A stretch of DNA of 64,000 nt from Oceaniglobus roseus (GTDB lineage: Bacteria > Pseudomonadota > Alphaproteobacteria > Rhodobacterales > Rhodobacteraceae), in assembly GCF_002869745.1 (NCBI RefSeq), contig NZ_PNOS01000003.1:1-64000 (forward strand), read 5' to 3'. Made by a program: the position numbers and the translations under genes. Below, piece after piece: positions 8,360 to 64,000 of the stretch; position 1 is the stretch's first letter; each line of letters starts with the position of its first letter. A model generated the notes under the pieces. It did no database searches, had not been told where the DNA came from, and saw only the letters and a program-made list of their open reading frames with translations.

Positions 8360-8384
8360 TCCGCATCAGCCAATGGGTAGGGAC

Positions 8385-9407
8385 ATGAGCAGGCGGGCCA
8401 ATCTGCGCGATATCGCCGACGCAGTGGGCGTCTCGGTCTCGGCCGTTTCGCTGGCGTTGCGGGGCGAGGCGCGGGTGTCGGAAGAGACGGCGGAGCGGAT
8501 CCGCGCGGCGGCAAAGCGGCTTGGCTATGTGCCCAACCGTGCCGCCTCGGCCCTGCGCACGCAGCGCAGCGACATCGTCGCGGTGTGCCTGAACGACCTT
8601 TCGAACCCGATCTTCAACGAGTTCCTGACCCATATCGAGGACGAGTTGCAGCAGTCGGGACGGATGCCCTATCTCGGCGTCTCGCGCGAGGATCCCGAGC
8701 GGCAGGCCCGCTTCCTGGAGGCCGCGATCTCCCAGGGGGCCGGGGGGCTGCTGATCTGTCCCGCGCGCGGCACCACGCCCGAGGATCTGCGCGTGGTGCT
8801 TCCCACGACGGGCCGCGCGCCTTTTCCGACGGTCCTGTTTTCGCGCAGCCTCGAGGATGTGGCCTGCCCGCAGTTCGGCAACGACGATTTCGCGGCGGGG
8901 CAACTCATGGCCGAGCGGCTTCTGGCCGGGGCCCATGAAACGTATCACTGGCTTGGCGGAGGACACGACAGCAGCACGGCGCGGGCGCGGGAGGCGGGAT
9001 TCCGCAACGTCATGGAGAGGGCCGGGCACGTCCCCGGCATCCATCACGGCCCGACCTCGCGGGCCTTCGGCCATGCCACGGCGGCGCGACTTCTGCGCGA
9101 GTCGTCCGGGCCGGTCGGCTTTGCCTGCTTCAGCGACCTGATCGCCTTCGGCGTGCTTGCCGCGGCAGCCCAGGCCGGCCTGCGGGCGGGCCGGGACCTG
9201 TCGGTCATCGGTTGCGACGACATGGAAGAGGCACGGTTCTCGGTCCCGCCTCTCACCTCGATCTGGATCGACAAGAGCGCGATCGGGCGGCTGGCCGCGC
9301 GCTCCGTCCTCGATCCGGAGGCGGAGGCGGTCACCCGGCGGATCGCCCCGCGTCTTGCGGACCGCGCGACGGTGCGCAGTCCGTCCGCGACACCATCCGC
9401 CGGATGA
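8385..9407 (+). CDS. LacI-family transcriptional regulator of the tct operon
   Basis: The N-terminal 50 residues form a LacI helix-turn-helix (NLRDIADAVGVSVSAVSLAL, then hinge region RLGYVPNRAASALR). The remainder is a periplasmic-binding-protein-like effector domain ending in the usual SVIGCDDMEEARFSVPPLTSI segment. The start was set at 8385 because GTAGGG lies just upstream. An ATG four codons earlier (8373) has no ribosome binding site. The gene is divergent from tctC and the shared operator implies autoregulation. The effector is likely the transported carboxylate or a derivative, which is inference from context. Confidence 0.9.
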   Translation: MSRRANLRDIADAVGVSVSAVSLALRGEARVSEETAERIRAAAKRLGYVPNRAASALRTQRSDIVAVCLNDLSNPIFNEFLTHIEDELQQSGRMPYLGVSREDPERQARFLEAAISQGAGGLLICPARGTTPEDLRVVLPTTGRAPFPTVLFSRSLEDVACPQFGNDDFAAGQLMAERLLAGAHETYHWLGGGHDSSTARAREAGFRNVMERAGHVPGIHHGPTSRAFGHATAARLLRESSGPVGFACFSDLIAFGVLAAAAQAGLRAGRDLSVIGCDDMEEARFSVPPLTSIWIDKSAIGRLAARSVLDPEAEAVTRRIAPRLADRATVRSPSATPSAG

Positions 9408-33558: not shown

Positions 33559-33733
33559 CCGGCCGGAGCCGCCCGGTTTCACGACCGCCGCGGCGCCGGG
33601 CAGTCCGCCCGATCCTTCGGCAGTCCGCGCCCGCTGGCGCGGCGGGCTGCCGACGGGGATGCTGCACTGCGGCATCTTGTTGGCACCGGCGTGGGATTTG
33701 CGCCATGGCGCGCTAACCTTCTGTTCAAAGCGG

Positions 33734-33783
33734 TTGCAGAAGGGGGGAGACCTCGCTGATAAACCGCGTGAGTTACCGCTAAC
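33734..33783 (+). promoter_or_regulatory. glgP promoter with LacI-type operator at the transcription start
   Basis: TTGCAG (33734-33739), 17 bases, TGATAA (33757-33762) form a plausible sigma-70 promoter with start near 33769. The near-palindrome GTTACCGCTAAC (33772-33783) follows immediately. It differs by one base from GTTACCGGTAAC found at 63887 before the sugar ABC operon. A repressor bound here would block the glycogen operon. The rest of the 264-base gap before glgP holds no gene. Confidence 0.6.
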
Positions 33784-33822: not shown

Positions 33823-36204
<2,382 letters not shown>

Positions 36205-36273: not shown

Positions 36274-38697
36274 ATGAAGACACCGAAAACACCCGCCAAG
36301 AGCCCCGCCCGGGCATCCTCCAAGGCCAAGGCCGCGGAGGGTGCAGACCCGAAACCCGCGAAGCCCGCCAAGGCGAAGGCCGCGCCCGCCGCGAAGACTG
36401 CCGCGAAGACCGAGGCGAAGCCCGCAAAACCCGCAAAGGCCCCCGCGGCGCCTAAGGCGGCGAAGGAGAAGGCCGCACCGAAGCGCAAGGCGGCCGCCGC
36501 CCCTGCCGAGGCCGCGCCGGCGATCCCGATGGACGTCGCGCAGGCGCTGCACGACGGGCGGCACGGCGATCCGTTCTCGATCCTCGGGCCGCACCTCAAG
36601 GGCGACAGCGCGGTGCTGACGGCGGTGGACCACGGCGCGGCGACGCTTGCGGCGGTGGTCGACGGCGAGGCGCATCCGCTGACCCGCGTTTCGGACGGTC
36701 TTGGCGTCTTTTCCGGCCGCATCCCGGCCGGAGCGCCCTACGTCCTGCGGGGCGGCGACGGGAACGGCAACGACTGGGAATATCAGGACGCCTACCGCTT
36801 CGGCCCCGTCATCGGCGAGATGGACGAATACCTGCTGGGCGAGGGCACGCACCAGCGGATCTGGAAGGTGCTGGGCGCCCACGTGATGACCCACGAGGGC
36901 GTCGACGGCACCCATTTCGCCGTCTGGGCCCCGAACGCGCAGCGCGTCTCGGTCGTCGGCGGCTTCAACCACTGGGACGGGCGGCGCCATGTCATGCGCA
37001 AGCGCGGCGCCACCGGCGTGTGGGAGATCTTCGTGCCGGGCGTCGGCGACAAGGAGGTCTACAAGTACGAGATCATCGGGCCCCACGGCGACCTCCAGCC
37101 GCTGAAGGCCGACCCGGTCGGCTTTGGCTCGCAGCATCCGCCCGAGAATGCCAGCATGGTGCGCGATATCCGCGGTTTCGGCTGGCAGGACCAGGAGTGG
37201 ATGGGCCATCGCGAGGGCAACAACGCCCGCACCGCGCCGATCGCCGTCTACGAGGTGCATCTGGGATCGTGGAAGCGCCACCCGGAAGAGGGCAACCGCC
37301 CGCTGTCGTACATCGAGGCGGCGGAGCAGCTGGTGGATTACGTCGCCGACATGGGCTTCACCCATATCGAGCTGATGCCGGTCAGCGAATACCCCTTCGA
37401 CGGTTCCTGGGGCTATCAGCCCGTCGGCCTGTTCGCACCCACCGTCCGCCACGGCCCGCCGCACGAATTCCGCAACCTCGTGGAGGCGGCGCACCGCAAG
37501 GGGATGGGCGTCATCCTCGACTGGGTGCCGGGGCATTTCCCGACCGATGCGCACGGCCTCGGGAAGTTCGACGGCACGCACCTGTACGAGCACGCGGATC
37601 CGCGCGAGGGGTTCCACCAGGACTGGAACACGCTGATCTACAACTACGGCCGGATCGAGGTGAAGAACTTCCTCGTGTCCAACGCCCTCTACTGGCTGGA
37701 GGAATACCACGTCGACGGGCTGCGCGTTGATGCCGTGGCCTCAATGCTCTACCGCGACTATTCGCGGGCCCACGACCAGTGGATCCCGAACAAGGACGGC
37801 GGACGCGAGAACTACGAGGCGATCGCGATGCTGAGGGACACCAACAGCATCGTCTACGGCCAGCAGCCGGGCATCATGACGGTGGCCGAGGAAAGCACCT
37901 CGTTCCCCGGCGTGTCGCAGCCGGTCGATTCCGGCGGGCTCGGCTTCGGCTACAAGTGGAACATGGGCTGGATGAACGACACGCTCCGCTACATGGAGCA
38001 GGATCCGATCCACCGGCAGTACCATCACCACCAGATGACCTTCGGCATCCACTATGCGTTCAGCGAGAACTTCATCCTGCCGATCAGCCACGACGAGGTG
38101 GTGCACGGCAAGGGGTCGATGCTGGACAAGATGCCGGGCGACCGCTGGCAGAAGTTCGCGAACCTTCGCGCCTATTACGGGTTCATGTGGGGGCATCCGG
38201 GCAAGAAGCTCCTGTTCATGGGACAGGAGTTCGCCCAGCCGGGCGAGTGGCGCCATCAGGAGCAGCTGTCCTGGGGCGTGCTGGAGGATCCCGCACACAG
38301 GGGGATCCAGAACCTGATCCGCGATCTGAACGGCCTCTACCGCGGCTATCCGGCGCTGCACGTGAAGGACTGCGATCCCGCCGGCTTCCAGTGGATCGAG
38401 CTGAACGACAACCAGCAGTCGATCCTGTCCTGGATCCGCCGCGGCAGCGAGCACGACGCCGAGATCGCGGTGGTCTGCAACTTCACTCCCGTCGAGCGGC
38501 AGGGATACCGGATGGGCCTGCCCTCCACCGGGCGCTGGCGCGAGGTGCTGAACACCGATGCCGAGGTCTATGGCGGCTCGGGCAAGGGCAACATGGGCGG
38601 GGTCGAGGCCACGGACACGGCCTGGCAGGGACAGCCCGCCTCGGCCGAGGTGCTGCTGCCGGGCCTGTCGACGCTGATCTTCGTCAAGGACGGCTGA
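36274..38697 (+). CDS. glgB: GlgB, 1,4-alpha-glucan branching enzyme with Lys/Ala/Pro-rich N-terminal tail
   Basis: The 807-residue enzyme makes alpha-1,6 branches in glycogen. After residue 85 it follows the normal family: N-terminal beta domain ([14 protein letters not shown]), CBM48 ([24 protein letters not shown]), and GH13 barrel with catalytic Asp486 ([10 protein letters not shown]), Glu539 (VAEEST) and Asp607 ([10 protein letters not shown]). Residues 1-85 are a low-complexity tail of Lys, Ala and Pro (AKPAKPAK-like repeats), like histone H1 tails and absent from most branching enzymes. No ribosome binding site precedes the ATG. An internal ATG at 36529 would give a conventional-length enzyme but also lacks a ribosome binding site. 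Confidence 0.96.
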
Positions 38698-38789: not shown

Positions 38790-40058
38790 ATGTCAACACC
38801 GAACGCAAGGCTTTCGACCCGCACCATGGCCTTCGTCCTGGCCGGCGGCCGGGGCAGCCGCCTGAAGGAGCTGACCGACAACCGCGCCAAGCCCGCGGTC
38901 TATTTCGGCGGCAAGACTCGCATCGTCGACTTCGCGCTGTCGAACGCGCTGAACTCGGGCATCCGCAAGATGGCCATCGCCACGCAGTACAAGGCGCATT
39001 CGCTGATCCGCCACTGCCAGCGCGGCTGGTCCTTCTTCCGCGCCGAGCGGAACGAGTTCCTCGACATCCTGCCGGCCTCGCAGCGGGTGGACGAGAACAA
39101 GTGGTACGTCGGCACCGCCGATGCCGTGACGCAGAACATCGACATCGTCGACAGCTACGGCGTCGACTACGTCCTGATCCTGGCGGGCGACCACATCTAC
39201 AAGATGGATTACGAGGTGATGATCCAGCAGCACGTCGACACCGATGCCGACGTGACCATCGGCTGCCTCACGGTGCCGCGCGAGGAGGCGTCGGCCTTCG
39301 GGGTCATGGCGATCGACGAAAGCGACCGGATCACCAGCTTCCTGGAAAAGCCGAAGGATCCGCCGGGCACGCCGGACGATCCGAACGTGACGCTGGCCTC
39401 GATGGGCATCTACGTCTTCAAGTGGTCGTTCCTGCGCGACCTGCTGATCCGCGACGCCGAGGACAGCAACTCGAGCCACGATTTCGGCGGCGACATCATC
39501 CCGGACATCGTGAAGAACGGCAAGGCGATGGCCCACCGGTTCGAGAATTCCTGCGTGCGCCATGCCGACGAGGCGCCTGCCTACTGGCGGGACGTGGGCA
39601 CCATCGACGCCTTCTGGAAGGCCAACATCGACCTGACCGATTTCACCCCCGACCTCGACCTCTGGCACAAGGAATGGCCGATCTGGACCTATGCCGAGTC
39701 GGTGCCGCCGGCGAAGTTCATCCACGACGAGGCCGACCGGCGCGGCATCGCCATCTCCTCGCTCGTCGCGGGGGGCTGCATCATCTCGGGGACCGAGATC
39801 CGCCAGTCGCTGCTGTTCACCCAGGTGCACACCAACTCCTACGCCACGCTCGAGCGGACGGTGGTGCTGCCCTACGTCAACATCGGGCGGAAGGCGCAGC
39901 TGAAGAACGTGGTGATCGACCGGGGGGTCGAGATCCCCGAGGGCCTGCGTGCCGGGTTCGACCGCGAGGAGGACCTGGCGAACGGCTTCCGCGTCACCGA
40001 CAGCGGGATCGTCCTGATCACCCAGGCGATGCTGGATGCGAGGGCCGCGAAGGCATGA
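38790..40058 (+). CDS. glgC: GlgC, glucose-1-phosphate adenylyltransferase
   Basis: The 422-residue enzyme makes ADP-glucose from glucose 1-phosphate and ATP, the committed step of glycogen synthesis. It has the nucleotidyltransferase site [45 protein letters not shown] and a C-terminal left-handed beta helix. The family is allosterically controlled, with fructose 6-phosphate and pyruvate as common activators in Rhodobacter relatives. The ATG follows GGGAGGACCGACG. It overlaps glgA by four bases (ATGA). Confidence 0.97.
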
Positions 40059-41488
40059 TCCGGGTGCTTTCGGTCGCCTCGGAATGTGCGCCCCTGGTGA
40101 AGACCGGGGGCCTTGCCGACGTGGTCGGCGCGCTGCCCCATGCGCTGAGGAAGCAGGATGTCGAGGTGCGCACCGTGCTGCCCGGCTATCCTGCGATCCT
40201 GGCGGCGGTCGACTGGGTCGACGACGTGATGCACGAGGACGACCTGTTCGGCGGCCGGGTCGAGGTGTTCCATGCCCGCGCCGCCGGGCTGGAGCTTCTG
40301 GTGGTCAAGGCCGACCACCTGTTCGGGCGCGACGGTGCGATCTACCTCAACTCGGAAGGCGCGGACTGGAGCGACAACGCCGAACGCTTCGCCTGCCTGT
40401 CCTGGATGGCCGCGCGGCTGGCGGTCGAGCCGCACGGCGGCTGGCAGGCGGATATCGTCCATTGCCACGACTGGCAGGCGGGGCTGGTGCCGCTCTACCT
40501 GCGGACGCTTCCGGGGGGCGGGCGGGTGCGCACGCTCATCACCATCCACAACATCGCCTTCCAAGGGCTCGCCCCGGTCGAGAAGCTGGAGCGGCTCAGG
40601 ATCCCCGGCTGGGCCTTCACGCCGGACGGCGCGGAGTACTGGGGCAAGATCTCGCCTTTGAAGGCGGGTCTGGTCTATGCCGACCGGCTGTCCACGGTCA
40701 GCCCGACCTATGCGCTCGAGCTGATGACACCGGCCTTCGGCATGGGGCTCGACGGGGTGATCCGCGAGCGGGCGGCGGACCTCTGCGGCATCCTGAACGG
40801 CATCGACCTCGACGTCTGGAGCCCCGAGCACGACGGAAGCATCGAGCGCTACGGCGCGCCCGAGGGCAAGGCGGCGAACAAGGCGGCCCTGCGCGATCTC
40901 TTCGGCCTGCCCGAGGGCGGGGGGCCGCTTGCCGTCGTGATCTCGCGCCTGAGCGAGCAGAAGGGGCTCGACCTGCTGATCGAGGCGCTGCCGTCCTTCC
41001 TCGACGCGGGGGGTCAGCTGGCGCTGCTCGGCAGCGGCGACCGCGCGCTCGAGACGCGGTTCCGCGACCTCGCCGAAACGCACGCCCAAGTCGGCGTCCA
41101 CATCGGCTACAACGAGGCGCTGTCGCACCGGATGATGGCCGGGGCCGACGCCATCCTCGTGCCCTCCCGGTTCGAGCCCTGCGGGCTGACCCAGCTTTAC
41201 GGTCTGCGCTACGGCACCGTTCCGGTGGTGGCGCTGACCGGCGGCCTGGCCGACACCGTGATCCACGCCAACGACGCGGCGCTGAAGCGGGGTGTGGCCA
41301 CCGGCCTCCAGTTCGCCCCGGTGACGGCCGAGGCGCTGAAGGGCGCGCTGGCGCGCCTGGTCGAGCTTCATGCGCAGCCCGAGGTCTGGCGGACCCTCCA
41401 GACCAACGCCATGTCCCATCCCGTCGGCTGGGAATCCTCGGCGGCCACCTATGCCGCCCTCTACCAGGACATGATGGCCCCCGCATGA
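40055..41488 (+). CDS. glgA: GlgA, glycogen synthase (ADP-glucose dependent)
   Basis: This 477-residue GT5 glycosyltransferase extends alpha-1,4-glucan from ADP-glucose. Motifs: [20 protein letters not shown] with the ADP-glucose-binding [32 protein letters not shown] and [18 protein letters not shown]. The start overlaps the glgC stop and its stop overlaps the glgX start (both ATGA), pointing to translational coupling. Confidence 0.97.
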
Positions 41489-43583
41489 GCCACCCCTTCG
41501 TGATGAGCGCCGGACGCGCCGCCCCCCTAGGCGCGACCTTCGACGGCGACGGCGTGAACTTCGCCGTCTTCTCGGAACATGCGCGGCGCATGGTGCTGTG
41601 CCTGTTCTCCGACGACGGCAAGCACGAGATCGCCCAGATCGACCTGCCCGAGCGCGACGGCGACGTCTGGCACGGCTATGTCTCGGGGATGAGGCCCGGG
41701 CAGAAATACGGCTTTCGCGCGCACGGTCCCTATCGCCCGGCGGAAGGGCACCGGTTCAACCCCCACAAGCTGCTGATCGACCCCTATGCCAAGCGGCTGA
41801 CGGGCCATCCCGAATGGCACGACGCGCTGATGGGCTATACCGTCGGCGCGCCGCAGGGCGACCTCAGCTTCGACAAGCGCGACAGCGCGCCCTACATGCC
41901 GCGCTCGGTGGTCGAGGATCCGGCATTCTCCTGGGGGCGCGACCAGGCGCCCGAGCACGCGGTGGCGGACTCGGTCATCTACGAGGCCCACGTGAAGGGG
42001 CTGACGGCGCTGCATCCGGGCGTGCCCTATCCGGGGACGTTCATCGGCATGGCGTCGGACCCGATGCTGGACTACCTGACCGACCTCGGGATCACGGCGA
42101 TCGAGCTGCTGCCCGCCCAGGCCTTCCTGAACGACCGCTTCCTGGTCGAGAAGAAGCTGACGAACTACTGGGGCTACCAGACCCTCGGCTTCTTCGCGCC
42201 CGAGCCGCGATACCTGCATCGCGGCCAGATCGCCGAGTTCCAGCAGATGGTCGCGCGGTTCCATTCGGCCGGGATCGAGGTGCTGATGGACGTCGTCTAC
42301 AACCACACCTGCGAGGGCAACGAGCAGGGGCCGACGCTGGCGTTCCGCGGGCTCGACAACGCCAGTTACTACCGCCTGGCCGACAACCCGCGCCACTACG
42401 TGAACGACACCGGCACCGGCAACACGGTGAACGTCGATCATCCGATGGTGTTGCGGATGGTGATGGATTCCCTGCGCTACTGGGTCGAGGTGATGCACGT
42501 CGACGGCTTCCGCTTCGACCTCTGCACCACGCTGGGGCGCACCGACCTCGGCTTCGACCGCGGCGCGGCCTTCTTCGACGCCATCCGCCAGGACCCGGTG
42601 CTGACCAAGGTGAAGCTGATCGCCGAGCCCTGGGACATCGGGTACGGCGGTTATCAACTGGGTGCCTTCCCGCCGCCGTTCATGGAGTGGAACGACAAGT
42701 ACCGCGACACCGTGCGCCGGTTCTGGCGCCACGATCCCGGCATGGCGCCGGGGCTGGCAGACCGGATCACCGGCTCGGCCCTCCAGTTCGACCATTCGGG
42801 GCGGCCCGCCACCTCGTCGGTCAACCTGCTGACGGCGCACGACGGCTTCACGCTGGAGGACGTGGTGTCCTACAGCAAGAAGCACAACGAGGCCAACGGC
42901 GAGAACGGCAACGACGGCCACGGCGAGAACTTCTCGGACAACATGGGGGTCGAGGGGCCGACGCAGAAGCAGGCGATCGCCGCCGCGCGCCTGAGGCGCA
43001 AGCGCAACATGATGGCGACGCTGTTCCTGTCGCAGGGCACGCCGATGCTGCTGGCGGGCGACGAGTTCGGCAACTCGCAAAGCGGCAACAACAACGCCTA
43101 TTGCCAGGACAACGCGGTCAGCTGGATCGACTGGGACACGGCGGATGCCGAGTTCCATGCCTTCACGAAACGGATGATCCGGTTCCGCAAGGACCACCCG
43201 ATCCTGCGCCAGAAGCTGTTCCTGCACGCCCGCGAACGCGCCATCGACGGCATGGAGGACCTGTTCTGGGGTCGCACCGACGGCACGCCCATGACCTCGG
43301 CCGACTGGGAGGATCCCACGCTCGCCTGCGTCTGCTGCGAGCTGCGCACCGCCTCCGGCACGCCGGGCTATGGCGCGACCGAGACGGCGATCTTCGCGGT
43401 GTTCAACGCGGGCGAGCCCTGCGAGGTGGCCATTCCCGACGCGCCCGAGGGGCTGGCCTGGGTCTGGGAGATCGACACGTCGCGCCCTGACGACCCGGTG
43501 CGCCCCGCCGCGGGAACAATGACCGTCGCTGCGGATTCCGTCTCGGTACTGGTGATGGAACCGGTCAGCGAGGAGATGGCGTG

Positions 43584-43584
<1 letters not shown>
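41485..43584 (+). CDS. glgX: GlgX, glycogen debranching enzyme
   Basis: The 699-residue GH13 isoamylase-type enzyme removes the short branches left by glycogen phosphorylase. It has an N-terminal CBM48 (GVNFAVFSEHARRMVLCLFS), the barrel regions VLMDVVYNHTCEGNE, GFRFDLCTTLGR (nucleophile Asp), LIAEPWDIG (acid Glu) and TAHDGFTLEDVVSY. The length fits GlgX. It overlaps glgA upstream, and the malQ start lies at its stop codon. Confidence 0.96.
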
Positions 43585-47116
<3,532 letters not shown>

Positions 47117-60207: not shown

Positions 60208-61299
60208 TTACATCTTGCCCCAGATCCTCTTGTAGGCGTCGCGGTAGCCGTTTTCCGGATCGAAGGTGTTCCGGTCGCCGCCGTCGTAGGCCACGTTCTC
60301 CTGCGTCACGACATGCAGCGGCGAGATGTAGCCCGAGGCGGGTTCGCCCTGCATCGCGCGGTTCAGCTCGTCCACCAGCTGCCAGCCCTGGAGGTTCAGG
60401 GGTTCCGCCACCGTCACCGCCTGGTACTGGCCCGCGCGGATTCGCTGGTAGGCGCCTTCCGAGCCGTCGCCTGCCGCCACCGCCAGCGGCGCGCCGTCAC
60501 CGGGGATGCCGGCCGAGGCCAGGGCGGGGCCCATGAAGTCGAAGTAGATGTCGTTGATGGCGAGGCTGTGGGTCCACTTGTCGCCGTGGCGCTGGAGCAG
60601 CGCCGTGGTCAGCGTCGGCATCCGCGAGGAGGTGTCTGCGATGGGGGTGTCGACGTATTCCAGCACGGTGCCGCCGAGCGCCTCGATCGTCTCCTTGATC
60701 TTGTCGGCCTTGGCGATGGCGATGGTGTAGGTCGAATCGGTGAAGATCACGACGCCGGGCTTGCCGCCGGCGTCGACGAAGGCCCACTCGGCGGCGACCT
60801 TCGAGACCTCCATCGCGTCGGTCGAGACGTTGACGAACAGCCCGTGGCCCGGATCGGCGCCGATCACGGGGCCGGAGTGCCAGCTGACCATGGGGATCCC
60901 GGCCTTCGTCGCCTCGTCCAGCGCCGCCTGCTGCTCGTTCGCGTCGAAGCCGTTGATGACGATGCCGTCGGGCTTCAGCGCCAGGGCCTGGCCGAAGGCC
61001 GACGTACGGCTTTGCACCGAACCGGCACCGTCCAGCACGCGGACCTCCCAGCCGATGGCCTTCGCGGCCTCCTGCACGCCGTTGGTGGCGCCGAGGATGC
61101 CGCCGTTCTTCATGTCGCCCGCGAGAACGACGATGGTCTTGCCCTCGGCAGCCTTGGGGCCGGTCGTCGGGCCGTCCCACTCGGTCACGCGGCTGGCGTA
61201 TTTCTCGACATCGGCCTTGGCGTCCGACATGGCGTCGGCGAAGGCCGGGGCCGCGAGCGCGAAGGCCGCGGCGGTGGTCAGAAGCGTGCGTCTCAGCAT
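60208..61299 (-). CDS. Sugar-type ABC transporter periplasmic binding protein
   Basis: The 363-residue protein has a signal peptide (MLRRTLLTTAAAFALAAPAFA) and a RbsB-like type I periplasmic fold: KTIVVLAGDMKNGGILGATNGVQEAAKAIG, ALKPDGIVINGFDANEQQAALDEATKAGIPMVSWHSG. This family binds monosaccharides, polyols or autoinducer-like sugars. The precise ligand is unknown. The start follows GGGAGGAGACC. It is the last gene of an operon ATPase-permease-binding protein, an order less common than binding protein first. Confidence 0.88.
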   Translation of the reverse strand: MLRRTLLTTAAAFALAAPAFADAMSDAKADVEKYASRVTEWDGPTTGPKAAEGKTIVVLAGDMKNGGILGATNGVQEAAKAIGWEVRVLDGAGSVQSRTSAFGQALALKPDGIVINGFDANEQQAALDEATKAGIPMVSWHSGPVIGADPGHGLFVNVSTDAMEVSKVAAEWAFVDAGGKPGVVIFTDSTYTIAIAKADKIKETIEALGGTVLEYVDTPIADTSSRMPTLTTALLQRHGDKWTHSLAINDIYFDFMGPALASAGIPGDGAPLAVAAGDGSEGAYQRIRAGQYQAVTVAEPLNLQGWQLVDELNRAMQGEPASGYISPLHVVTQENVAYDGGDRNTFDPENGYRDAYKRIWGKM

Positions 61300-61324
61300 G
61301 TGTGGTCTCCTCCCGTTCTGCTGT

Positions 61325-62347
61325 TCACTTGTGGGCCGCGCCCTTCTTGCGCTGCGCATAGCCCGCGATGCCGATGGCGATGAGAAGGGTCAGGCCGTTG
61401 AACATCGGTTCGACCCAGAAGCTGCCGCCGAACTGCTGGATTCCGGAGATGCCGACGGCCAGGATCACGACGCCGACGATGGTGCCCCAGACGTTGACGC
61501 GCCCCGGCTTGATCGTGGTCGAGCCGAGGAAGGCGCCGACGAGCGCGGGCAGCAGGAACTCGAGCCCCACCGACGCCTGCCCGATCCGGAGCTTGCTGGC
61601 GAGCAGGACGCCGGTCAGCGCCGTCAGCGTGCCGGAGGTCACGAAGGCGCCGACGACGAACTTGCGGGTCGGGATGCCATTCAGCTCGGCAGCCTTCGGG
61701 TTGGCCCCGATGGCATAGAGGTAGCGGCCGATGGGGGTGTATTCGAGGACCAGCCAGAGGATCACAGTAATGATCAGGACGTAATAGCCGGTGATCGGCA
61801 GGCCGAGGACGAAGGTGCCGTTCAGGTCGTAGAACCCTTGCGGCAGGACGCCGATCATCTGCCGCCCGCCGGTGTGCCAGAGGGCGAGGGCATAGAGGAC
61901 GGTGCCGGTGCCGAGCGTGGCGATGAAGGCGTCGATCTTTGCGATTTCCACGAGGAATCCGTTCAGCAGCCCGGTGAAGGCGCCGAGGCAGAGCACGGTG
62001 ACGACCGCGACGGGCCAGGGGAAGCCGTAGAGCGTCTGGAGCGAGATCGCGAGGATGTGCCAGAGCACGATCCCGTAGCCCACGGTCAGGTCGATCCGCC
62101 CCGCGACCATGGGGATCATCGCGGCCAGCGACAAAAGCGCGATGATCGACTTGTCCGAGACGATGGCGCGCAGGTTCAGCATCGTCGGGAAGGTTTCGGG
62201 CAGCAGGACCGAGAACAGCAGGATCAGGCCGACCATCAGGATGACGAGGCCGTAGACCGGGGTGAGGCGGATCAGCTTCTGCACGGGCGAAAGGTTGGAG
62301 AGTTCGTCCCGCGTCGGTTCCAGCGCGTCGGATTCGATGGAGTTCAT
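61325..62347 (-). CDS. Sugar-type ABC transporter permease (RbsC/AraH family)
   Basis: The 340-residue protein has about ten helices of the branched-chain/sugar permease family: NLRAIVSDKSIIALLSLAAMIPMVAGRIDLTVGYGIVL, KIDAFIATLGTGTVLYALAL, RYLYAIGANPKAAELNGI (the coupling region with conserved GANxxAAxLxGI) and LLPALVGAFLGSTTIKPGRVNVWGT. It forms the membrane channel, presumably as a dimer. It lies 10 bases after the ATPase gene and 25 before the binding-protein gene. Confidence 0.92.
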   Translation of the reverse strand: MNSIESDALEPTRDELSNLSPVQKLIRLTPVYGLVILMVGLILLFSVLLPETFPTMLNLRAIVSDKSIIALLSLAAMIPMVAGRIDLTVGYGIVLWHILAISLQTLYGFPWPVAVVTVLCLGAFTGLLNGFLVEIAKIDAFIATLGTGTVLYALALWHTGGRQMIGVLPQGFYDLNGTFVLGLPITGYYVLIITVILWLVLEYTPIGRYLYAIGANPKAAELNGIPTRKFVVGAFVTSGTLTALTGVLLASKLRIGQASVGLEFLLPALVGAFLGSTTIKPGRVNVWGTIVGVVILAVGISGIQQFGGSFWVEPMFNGLTLLIAIGIAGYAQRKKGAAHK

Positions 62348-62357
62348 GGGGGCTCTC

Positions 62358-63851
62358 TCAGGCGGCTTCTCCGGCCGATGCGGCCTGGATCAGGGTTTCG
62401 GTGGACAGGCTGACGCCCGACAGCTCGTTCACCACGCGCCCGCGCGAGAAGACGATGGCGCGGTGGCAGATGTTGGCGACCTCCTCGAAGTCGGTCGAGA
62501 CGACGAGGACGCCCATGCCGGTCGCCAGCGCGTCGAACAGCAGCTGGTAGATCTCGGCCTTGGCGCCGACATCGACGCCCGCGGTCGGATCCTCGGCGAT
62601 CATCAGGCGCCGCCCGGTGTCGAGCCAGCGGCCCACGACGACCTTCTGCTGGTTGCCCCCCGACAGCGCCTCGATGGCGAGGGTGGGGTCGTTGGGGTAG
62701 AGACCGACGCGTCTGCCGAGGGCGTGGGTCGCCGCCTCTTCCTCGCGGGGGCGGGTGAAGCTCAGGAGCTTGCGGCCGGTGGCGACGGGGTTCAGGAAGG
62801 CGTTCTCGCGGATCGTCAGGGCGGGGGCGATGGATTCCACAACCCGGTCGCGGGCGACGAAGCCGATGCCCGAAGCCATGGCGGCGCGCGGGGACGAGAG
62901 GTCGGGCGCCTTGCCGTCGAGCATCACCTCGCCGGTGTGGGCCATGGTGCCGAACAGGGCGCGGCCGATCTCCTCGTGACCCGCGCCGCGCAGGCCGACG
63001 AGGCCCACCAGTTCGCCGCGGCGGATTGAGAAATCGACCGGGCCCGCGGTCTTCGTCTTCAGGCCCCTGACCGTCAGCGTCTCGGCACCTTCCTGCACCT
63101 CGGGCCGGGTGATGTCGCGCGCCTTGCGCCCGACGATGAGGTTCACCAAATCCTCGGGGTTGGTGTGGGCGATGTCGCGCATCCCCACCAGTTGCCCGTC
63201 GCGCAGCACCGCCACGCGGTCGGCGATGCGGAACACCTCGTCCAGCCGGTGGGACACGTAGATCATGCCGACGCCTTTTGCCTTCAGGGGCCGGAGCGCG
63301 GCGAACAGGCGTTCCACCTCGTCGGCGGGGAGCGACGCGGTGGGCTCGTCCAGCACGAGGAAGTCGCATTCCACGGCCAGCGCGCGGGCGATGGCGACCA
63401 GCGACTTCTCGGTGCGGGTGAGGCTCGCGATGCGGGCCGTGGGCGCGAAGGTGGCGTCGACGAGGGAGAGGGCGCGGCGGGCGACGTCCTCGGTCGCGGC
63501 CCAGTCGATACGGCCGCCCTTCTTCACGTAGCCGACGGCGAGGGCGATGTTCTCGGCCACGCTCATCCACTCGATCAGCCCGAGGTCCTGGTGGATGAAG
63601 GCGACTGCCTGACGATGGCCGACCTTGCCCGCGATATGGTTGTAAGGCGCACCGTCGACCATGACCTGGCCCGCGTTCGGGGTGTGGATGCCGCCGAGCA
63701 CCTTGATCAGGGTGGACTTGCCCGCGCCGTTCTCGCCCAAGAGCGCGACGATCTCGCCCCGTCCGACGCGCAGGGACACGCCCCTGAGGGCCGCGGTGCC
63801 GCCGAAGCTCTTCTCGATCCGGTCGAAGAACAGACCGTCGGTCAGGGTCAT
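62358..63851 (-). CDS. Sugar-type ABC transporter ATP-binding protein, double domain (RbsA/MglA type)
   Basis: The 497-residue protein has two nucleotide-binding domains. The first has Walker A GENGAGKST and Walker B CDFLVLDEPTASLP, but its signature reads LTRTEKSLVAIARAL instead of an LSGGQ-type motif. The second has the degenerate P-loop GLRGAGHEEIG, signature LSGGNQQKVVVGRWL and LMIAEDPTAGVDVG. Such asymmetry is normal in this family, where only some sites hydrolyse ATP. The start at 63851 has GGAGGAGG. The in-frame ATG at 63884 is next to the operator and would extend the protein without similarity. Confidence 0.92.
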   Translation of the reverse strand: MTLTDGLFFDRIEKSFGGTAALRGVSLRVGRGEIVALLGENGAGKSTLIKVLGGIHTPNAGQVMVDGAPYNHIAGKVGHRQAVAFIHQDLGLIEWMSVAENIALAVGYVKKGGRIDWAATEDVARRALSLVDATFAPTARIASLTRTEKSLVAIARALAVECDFLVLDEPTASLPADEVERLFAALRPLKAKGVGMIYVSHRLDEVFRIADRVAVLRDGQLVGMRDIAHTNPEDLVNLIVGRKARDITRPEVQEGAETLTVRGLKTKTAGPVDFSIRRGELVGLVGLRGAGHEEIGRALFGTMAHTGEVMLDGKAPDLSSPRAAMASGIGFVARDRVVESIAPALTIRENAFLNPVATGRKLLSFTRPREEEAATHALGRRVGLYPNDPTLAIEALSGGNQQKVVVGRWLDTGRRLMIAEDPTAGVDVGAKAEIYQLLFDALATGMGVLVVSTDFEEVANICHRAIVFSRGRVVNELSGVSLSTETLIQAASAGEAA

Positions 63852-63886
63852 GCAGCCTCCTCCCACAGGCGACCGGCGATGCATGA

Positions 63887-63967
63887 GTTACCGGTAACGC
63901 GTGCGATCCTTCGCCGATCCCTCAATTCTGTCAAGGGAAAAGGCGGGCAGCAACATTTACCGGTAAC
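63887..63967 (-). promoter_or_regulatory. Sugar ABC operon promoter with two LacI-type operators
   Basis: Perfect palindromes GTTACCGGTAAC (63887-63898) and TTACCGGTAA (63957-63966) lie with centres 69 bp apart. Between them is a strong promoter on the minus strand: TTGACA (63934-63929), 17 bases, AAGGAT (63911-63906), so the first operator covers the transcription start. The arrangement suits repression with possible looping. The sites resemble operators of LacI-family sugar-acid and sugar repressors such as GntR of E. coli. Confidence 0.75.
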
Positions 63968-64000
63968 GCGGGATGTGCATAAGCTCTCGCGGGCAGGAGA

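Follow-up and report, generated by a model that had tools for sequence, protein, structure and literature searches.

The analysed window is a stretch of 64,000 nucleotides of Oceaniglobus roseus DNA (contig NZ_PNOS01000003.1, positions 1 to 64,000 of the forward strand), and it carries a glycogen operon, glgP-glgB-glgC-glgA-glgX-malQ-pgm, preceded by two predicted operators of LacI-family repressors. Judged by glgP, the closest named relatives are Oceaniglobus indicus (84%) and Oceaniovalibus sp. (78%). The features of this region are:

33726..33737, plus strand: predicted AglR-type LacI-family operator, CAAAGCGGTTGC (PWM score 10.2 bits, shuffle p=0.01)
33734..33739, plus strand: possible -35 element, TTGCAG, which shares bases with the AglR-type site (identified by visual inspection; no promoter here in the consensus scan)
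33772..33783, plus strand: predicted CceR-type LacI-family operator, GTTACCGCTAAC (one mismatch from the GTTAGCGCTAAC found at zwf)
33823..36204, plus strand: glgP, glycogen phosphorylase (TIGR02093, 1051.8 bits, cut-off 552.9)
36274..38697, plus strand: glgB, branching enzyme (NF003811, 1018.6 bits)
38790..40058, plus strand: glgC, glucose-1-phosphate adenylyltransferase (TIGR02091, 495.8 bits)
40097..41488, plus strand: glgA, glycogen synthase (NF001899, 605.3 bits, match from profile position 14; the real start probably lies about 13 codons further upstream)
41485..43584, plus strand: glgX, debranching enzyme (TIGR02100, 991.7 bits)
43644..45476, plus strand: malQ-like 4-alpha-glucanotransferase (TIGR00217, 268.1 bits, cut-off 205.65)
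45485..47116, plus strand: pgm, phosphoglucomutase (NF005737, 925.4 bits)

The 12-mer GTTACCGCTAAC ends 39 bp before the ATG of glgP. An earlier note on this DNA had paired it with GTTACCGGTAAC, upstream of a sugar ABC transporter operon 30 kb away, and had suggested that one LacI-family repressor could govern both operons; the two 12-mers are indeed present, at 33772-33783 and 63887-63898, respectively, and the presence of a LacI-family operator at glgP is borne out by our analysis. The note had also placed both at predicted transcription starts, in the same position relative to the -10 element, for which we find no support, as a consensus promoter scan detected no sigma-70-like site in either the glgP region or the ABC region. 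The core TTACCGSTAA, for which the note had proposed a genome scan, has three occurrences in the 4.41 Mb genome, each within the 64-kb window, in the pattern searches that constitute our genome-wide scoring. However, this count is not convincingly higher than that of the reversed control pattern, which has 2 exact places, and at one mismatch the genome holds 10 places against 7. The rarity of the motif alone hence proves nothing, and what stands above chance is the promoter-proximal placement and the conservation of the site. GTTACCGCTAAC and GTTACCGGTAAC differ by a single base, the same base that separates the motifs of the two regulators discussed below, and the glgP 12-mer is a GTTACC/GTTAGC hybrid that lies one base away from the CceR motif and one base away from that of the LacI linked to the ABC genes.

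The note had called for a LacI-family gene to be sought near position 64000, and one is present next to the transporter operon, transcribed divergently from 63973. A second transporter operator, TTTACCGGTAAC, absent from the note, accompanies GTTACCGGTAAC. The features of the transporter locus are:

60208..61359, minus strand: sugar ABC transporter substrate-binding protein (PF13407, 98.7 bits)
61325..62347, minus strand: sugar ABC transporter permease
62358..63851, minus strand: sugar ABC transporter ATPase (best model AraG/RbsA-type, under equivalog cut-offs; start at 63851 from codon scoring, longest ORF start at 63884)
63887..63898: predicted operator 1 of the ABC-linked LacI, GTTACCGGTAAC, a perfect palindrome kept in orthologous loci
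63956..63967: predicted operator 2 of the ABC-linked LacI, TTTACCGGTAAC (operator pairs occur in orthologous loci)
63973..64000 and on to contig position 65028 (L004:473-1528), plus strand: ABC-linked LacI gene, divergent (PF00356, PF13377)

As to the transported sugar, no equivalog profile model scored over its cut-off for the ABC genes. In seven other genera the orthologous loci retain these ABC genes, and the intergenic region between the divergent genes holds two operators, with half-sites GTTACC, GTTACG, GTTATC or near variants thereof; GTTAACGATAAC is additionally present in two of these loci and a GTTAGC half is found in none of their operators. The recognition helix of the ABC-linked LacI is KMT[VA]SR (KMTVSR in this genome) as against EMTVSR in CceR. 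Since the orthologous loci keep the ABC genes, the operator pair, the half-sites and the KMT[VA]SR helix, a local circuit, in which the operon's own LacI paralogue is predicted to act on its two operators, is well supported. We also note that in some genera (L096-L099) the ABC operators are GTTACCCGTAAC, with odd symmetry around the centre, in place of GTTACCGGTAAC, while the helix in these loci is KMTASR, the same as that of L095 and L100, in which CCGG is retained.

The genome encodes nine LacI-family proteins, among them a CceR/GapR candidate (C59:14656-15591). Nearly every genome of the family sample encodes a protein about 35-43% identical to the ABC-linked LacI; one such gene, in G024, shares 74% identity with the C59 protein, and the CceR proteins of the congeners are 87-89% identical to it, on which grounds we take the C59 protein as the CceR/GapR orthologue. 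CceR, the global regulator of central carbon metabolism in Rhodobacteraceae, controls glycolysis, gluconeogenesis and the Entner-Doudoroff pathway and senses gluconate-6P (PMC4052901; PMC5507952). In this genome, zwf-pgl-pgi is preceded at 35 bp by GTTAGCGCTAAC and edd (TIGR01196, 947 bits) by GTTAGCGCAAAC, and sites within one mismatch of GTTAGCGCTAAC are found only before zwf, edd and glgP. The glgP site, with its one mismatch, scores 17.3 bits (shuffle p=0.005) and the exact 12-mer serves at zwf in two genera (G081, G079); a matrix derived from zwf finds the CceR motif at 50 of the 55 family zwf promoters. On the sequence of the glgP 12-mer alone, CceR is preferred over the ABC-linked LacI by 2.2 bits only. 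CceR-type sites (p<0.05) occur at 17/45 family glgP promoters and at 5/30 aglR control promoters (Fisher p=0.04), a modest excess. Taken together with the congeners described below, the site at 33772-33783 is a probable CceR (GapR) operator. A further match, GTTAGCGGAAAC, between a divergent gamma-glutamyltransferase gene and TRAP dctP (C16:45817-45828; L092:3318), may be another CceR-type site or a product of chance.

The CceR-type site at glgP is kept in five of six congeners, within intergenic DNA that has otherwise diverged. Four congeners (G120, G121, G122 and G124) are without the ABC-linked LacI but possess a CceR that is 87-88% identical and a conserved glgP site (GTTAACGCTAAC in G120, GTTACCGCCAAC in G122 and GTTACCGCTAAC in the other two), and their zwf genes are preceded by the perfect palindrome GTTAGCGCTAAC. 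G123, which has a contig-edge orthologue of the ABC-linked LacI, shows GTTACCCGTAAC/GTTACGGGTAAC as its ABC operators and the weakest glgP site among the congeners, with the left half TTTAAC. In four Boseongicola loci, GTTAMCGCTAAC (that is, GTTAACGCTAAC or GTTACCGCTAAC) is located 47-49 bp before glgP. Throughout this clade, in congeners and Boseongicola alike, the glgP site has GTTACC or a GTTAAC-like sequence as its left half and never GTTAGC, so that the CceR site at glgP may be weaker than the one at zwf. Across the family sample, a glgP site accompanies the ABC-linked LacI in one of 4 genomes with this repressor and is present in 16 of 41 without it (Fisher p = 1).

The second site, CAAAGCGGTTGC, lies 34 bp upstream of the CceR-type site and was likewise absent from the earlier note. 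Its sequence is similar to tcAAAGCGCTTTga, the published motif of AglR, the alpha-glucoside repressor (PMC4052901). Compared with the palindrome CAAAGCGCTTTG, CAAAGCGGTTGC has an intact left half, but in its right half TTGC replaces the TTTG of aglR promoters; because this right half is non-canonical, we hold AglR binding at glgP to be less secure than the assignment to CceR, and we regard an AglR operator at 33726-33737 as plausible. An aglR gene with its own canonical operators (C17:16991 and 17158) is present in the genome, and CAAASCGSTTKS occurs at four genomic places: next to aglR on C17 (twice), before glgP and before ychF. Each of the six congeners has the block CAAAGCGSTTGC (TAAAGCGCTTGC in G120), 45-48 bp away from the CceR-type site. 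AglR-type sites occur at 16/45 glgP promoters versus 5/55 zwf promoters (Fisher p=0.001), canonical ones stand at glgP in other genera (for example, G118, G074, G022 and G034), and in G088 and G067 aglR, a GH1 glycosidase gene, the glucokinase gene glk and glgP are contiguous and co-directional. The place before ychF is a perfect AglR-type palindrome, CAAAGCGCTTTG (C63:53346-53357; L089:3847), about 130 bp from a GTPase gene that has no obvious link to alpha-glucosides. Elsewhere in the window, another LacI-family gene (8373-9407, plus strand; NCBIfam matches below cut-off) has the perfect palindrome GTCAATCGATTGAC 80 bp before its HTH codons.

The idea of the earlier note, in which the glgP site would be a further target of the ABC-linked LacI (63973-65028) and the glycogen and transporter genes would be repressed together, draws on the left half GTTACC, which is the same as in the ABC operator, and on the restriction of TTACCGSTAA to the glgP and ABC places in the genome. 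Cross-binding between related LacI proteins is also possible, since E. coli GntR recognises the sites of its paralogue IdnR (PMC4052901). However, the glgP site persists in the four congeners that are without this LacI, the one congener with an orthologue combines altered ABC operators with the weakest glgP site, the right half GCTAAC is absent from all ABC operators, and no family-wide association of this LacI with a glgP site is seen. We consider such shared repression improbable, and reject it as the main reading on the presence/absence pattern among congeners and the half-site grammar. The interpretation in the note is thus partly supported: a regulator of sugar uptake may reach the glycogen operon, though by way of AglR and the alpha-glucoside transporter on C17 and not of the ABC operon at 60-64 kb.

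That the glgP 12-mer is a chance similarity with no regulatory role would agree with motif counts near control values in both window and genome, but its retention in five of six congeners inside diverged DNA, and at a like distance from glgP in Boseongicola, makes this highly improbable. A stronger contender, which we nevertheless hold to be rather unlikely, is that CceR alone matters, with CAAAGCGSTTGC representing a conserved -35 element or the site of another protein. The right half TTGCA does resemble a -35 element and departs from the AglR palindrome, and the near-constant spacing of 45-48 bp between block and site is as expected from -35 to +1. Yet a -35 element has no need of the conserved AAAGCG, other genera have canonical AglR sites at glgP, glgP directly follows aglR-GH1-glk in two genera, and the AglR palindrome is upstream of no other LacI gene in this genome.

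We therefore favour, as the likely reading, a CceR operator at 33772-33783 and an AglR operator at 33726-33737 through which the two proteins would repress glgPBCAX-malQ-pgm, with the ABC-linked LacI acting locally. Both motifs are observed directly, as are their match to the zwf/edd and aglR promoters and a spacing between them that is conserved in the genus. In the proposed mechanism, CceR bound near the transcription start would repress the operon at low 6-phosphogluconate and be released by this metabolite, AglR would repress it when alpha-glucosides are absent and be released by them, and the operon would open fully only when both signals report sugar. It is conceivable, and we put it forward tentatively, that the glycogen operon of this roseobacter clade has a two-input promoter at which CceR reports Entner-Doudoroff flux and AglR external alpha-glucosides, the consistently asymmetric CceR site being tuned to low strength, which would let glycogen turnover respond at a 6-phosphogluconate level unlike that of zwf/edd.

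The control of glycogen in alphaproteobacteria is little described in the papers we found, and the glycogen operon is predicted here to belong, as a new target, to two known regulons. If this is true, one promoter brings storage-polymer genes into two known sugar regulons, the CceR regulon extends from glycolysis to carbon storage, and glycogen is tied to 6-phosphogluconate and alpha-glucosides. More generally, the assignment of a LacI-type site to one paralogous repressor or another can hinge on a single base, and thus motif sharing within one genome can mislead when relatives are not considered.

Among known systems, the GntR/IdnR proteins of E. coli, also of the LacI family, resemble the ABC-linked LacI in having TTACCGGTAAC within their operator and, in GntR, the helix KMTVSR, but they act on gluconate genes, whereas a sugar ABC transporter is the target here. 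The CceR/GapR regulon of Rhodobacteraceae (RSP_1663) shares with this genome the LacI-family regulator, GTTAGCGCTAAC at zwf-pgl-pgi and a related site at edd; the difference is that the glycogen operon is missing from the targets named in PMC4052901 and PMC11323563, and neither of these texts names glg genes for CceR or AglR. The AglR regulon is matched by the aglR gene on C17, with its CAAAGCGCTTTG operators, beside ABC transporter, GH13, GH1 and glucokinase genes; it has been described as local, comprising aglR itself and one divergent operon (PMC4052901), whereas here a predicted site also lies before glgP.
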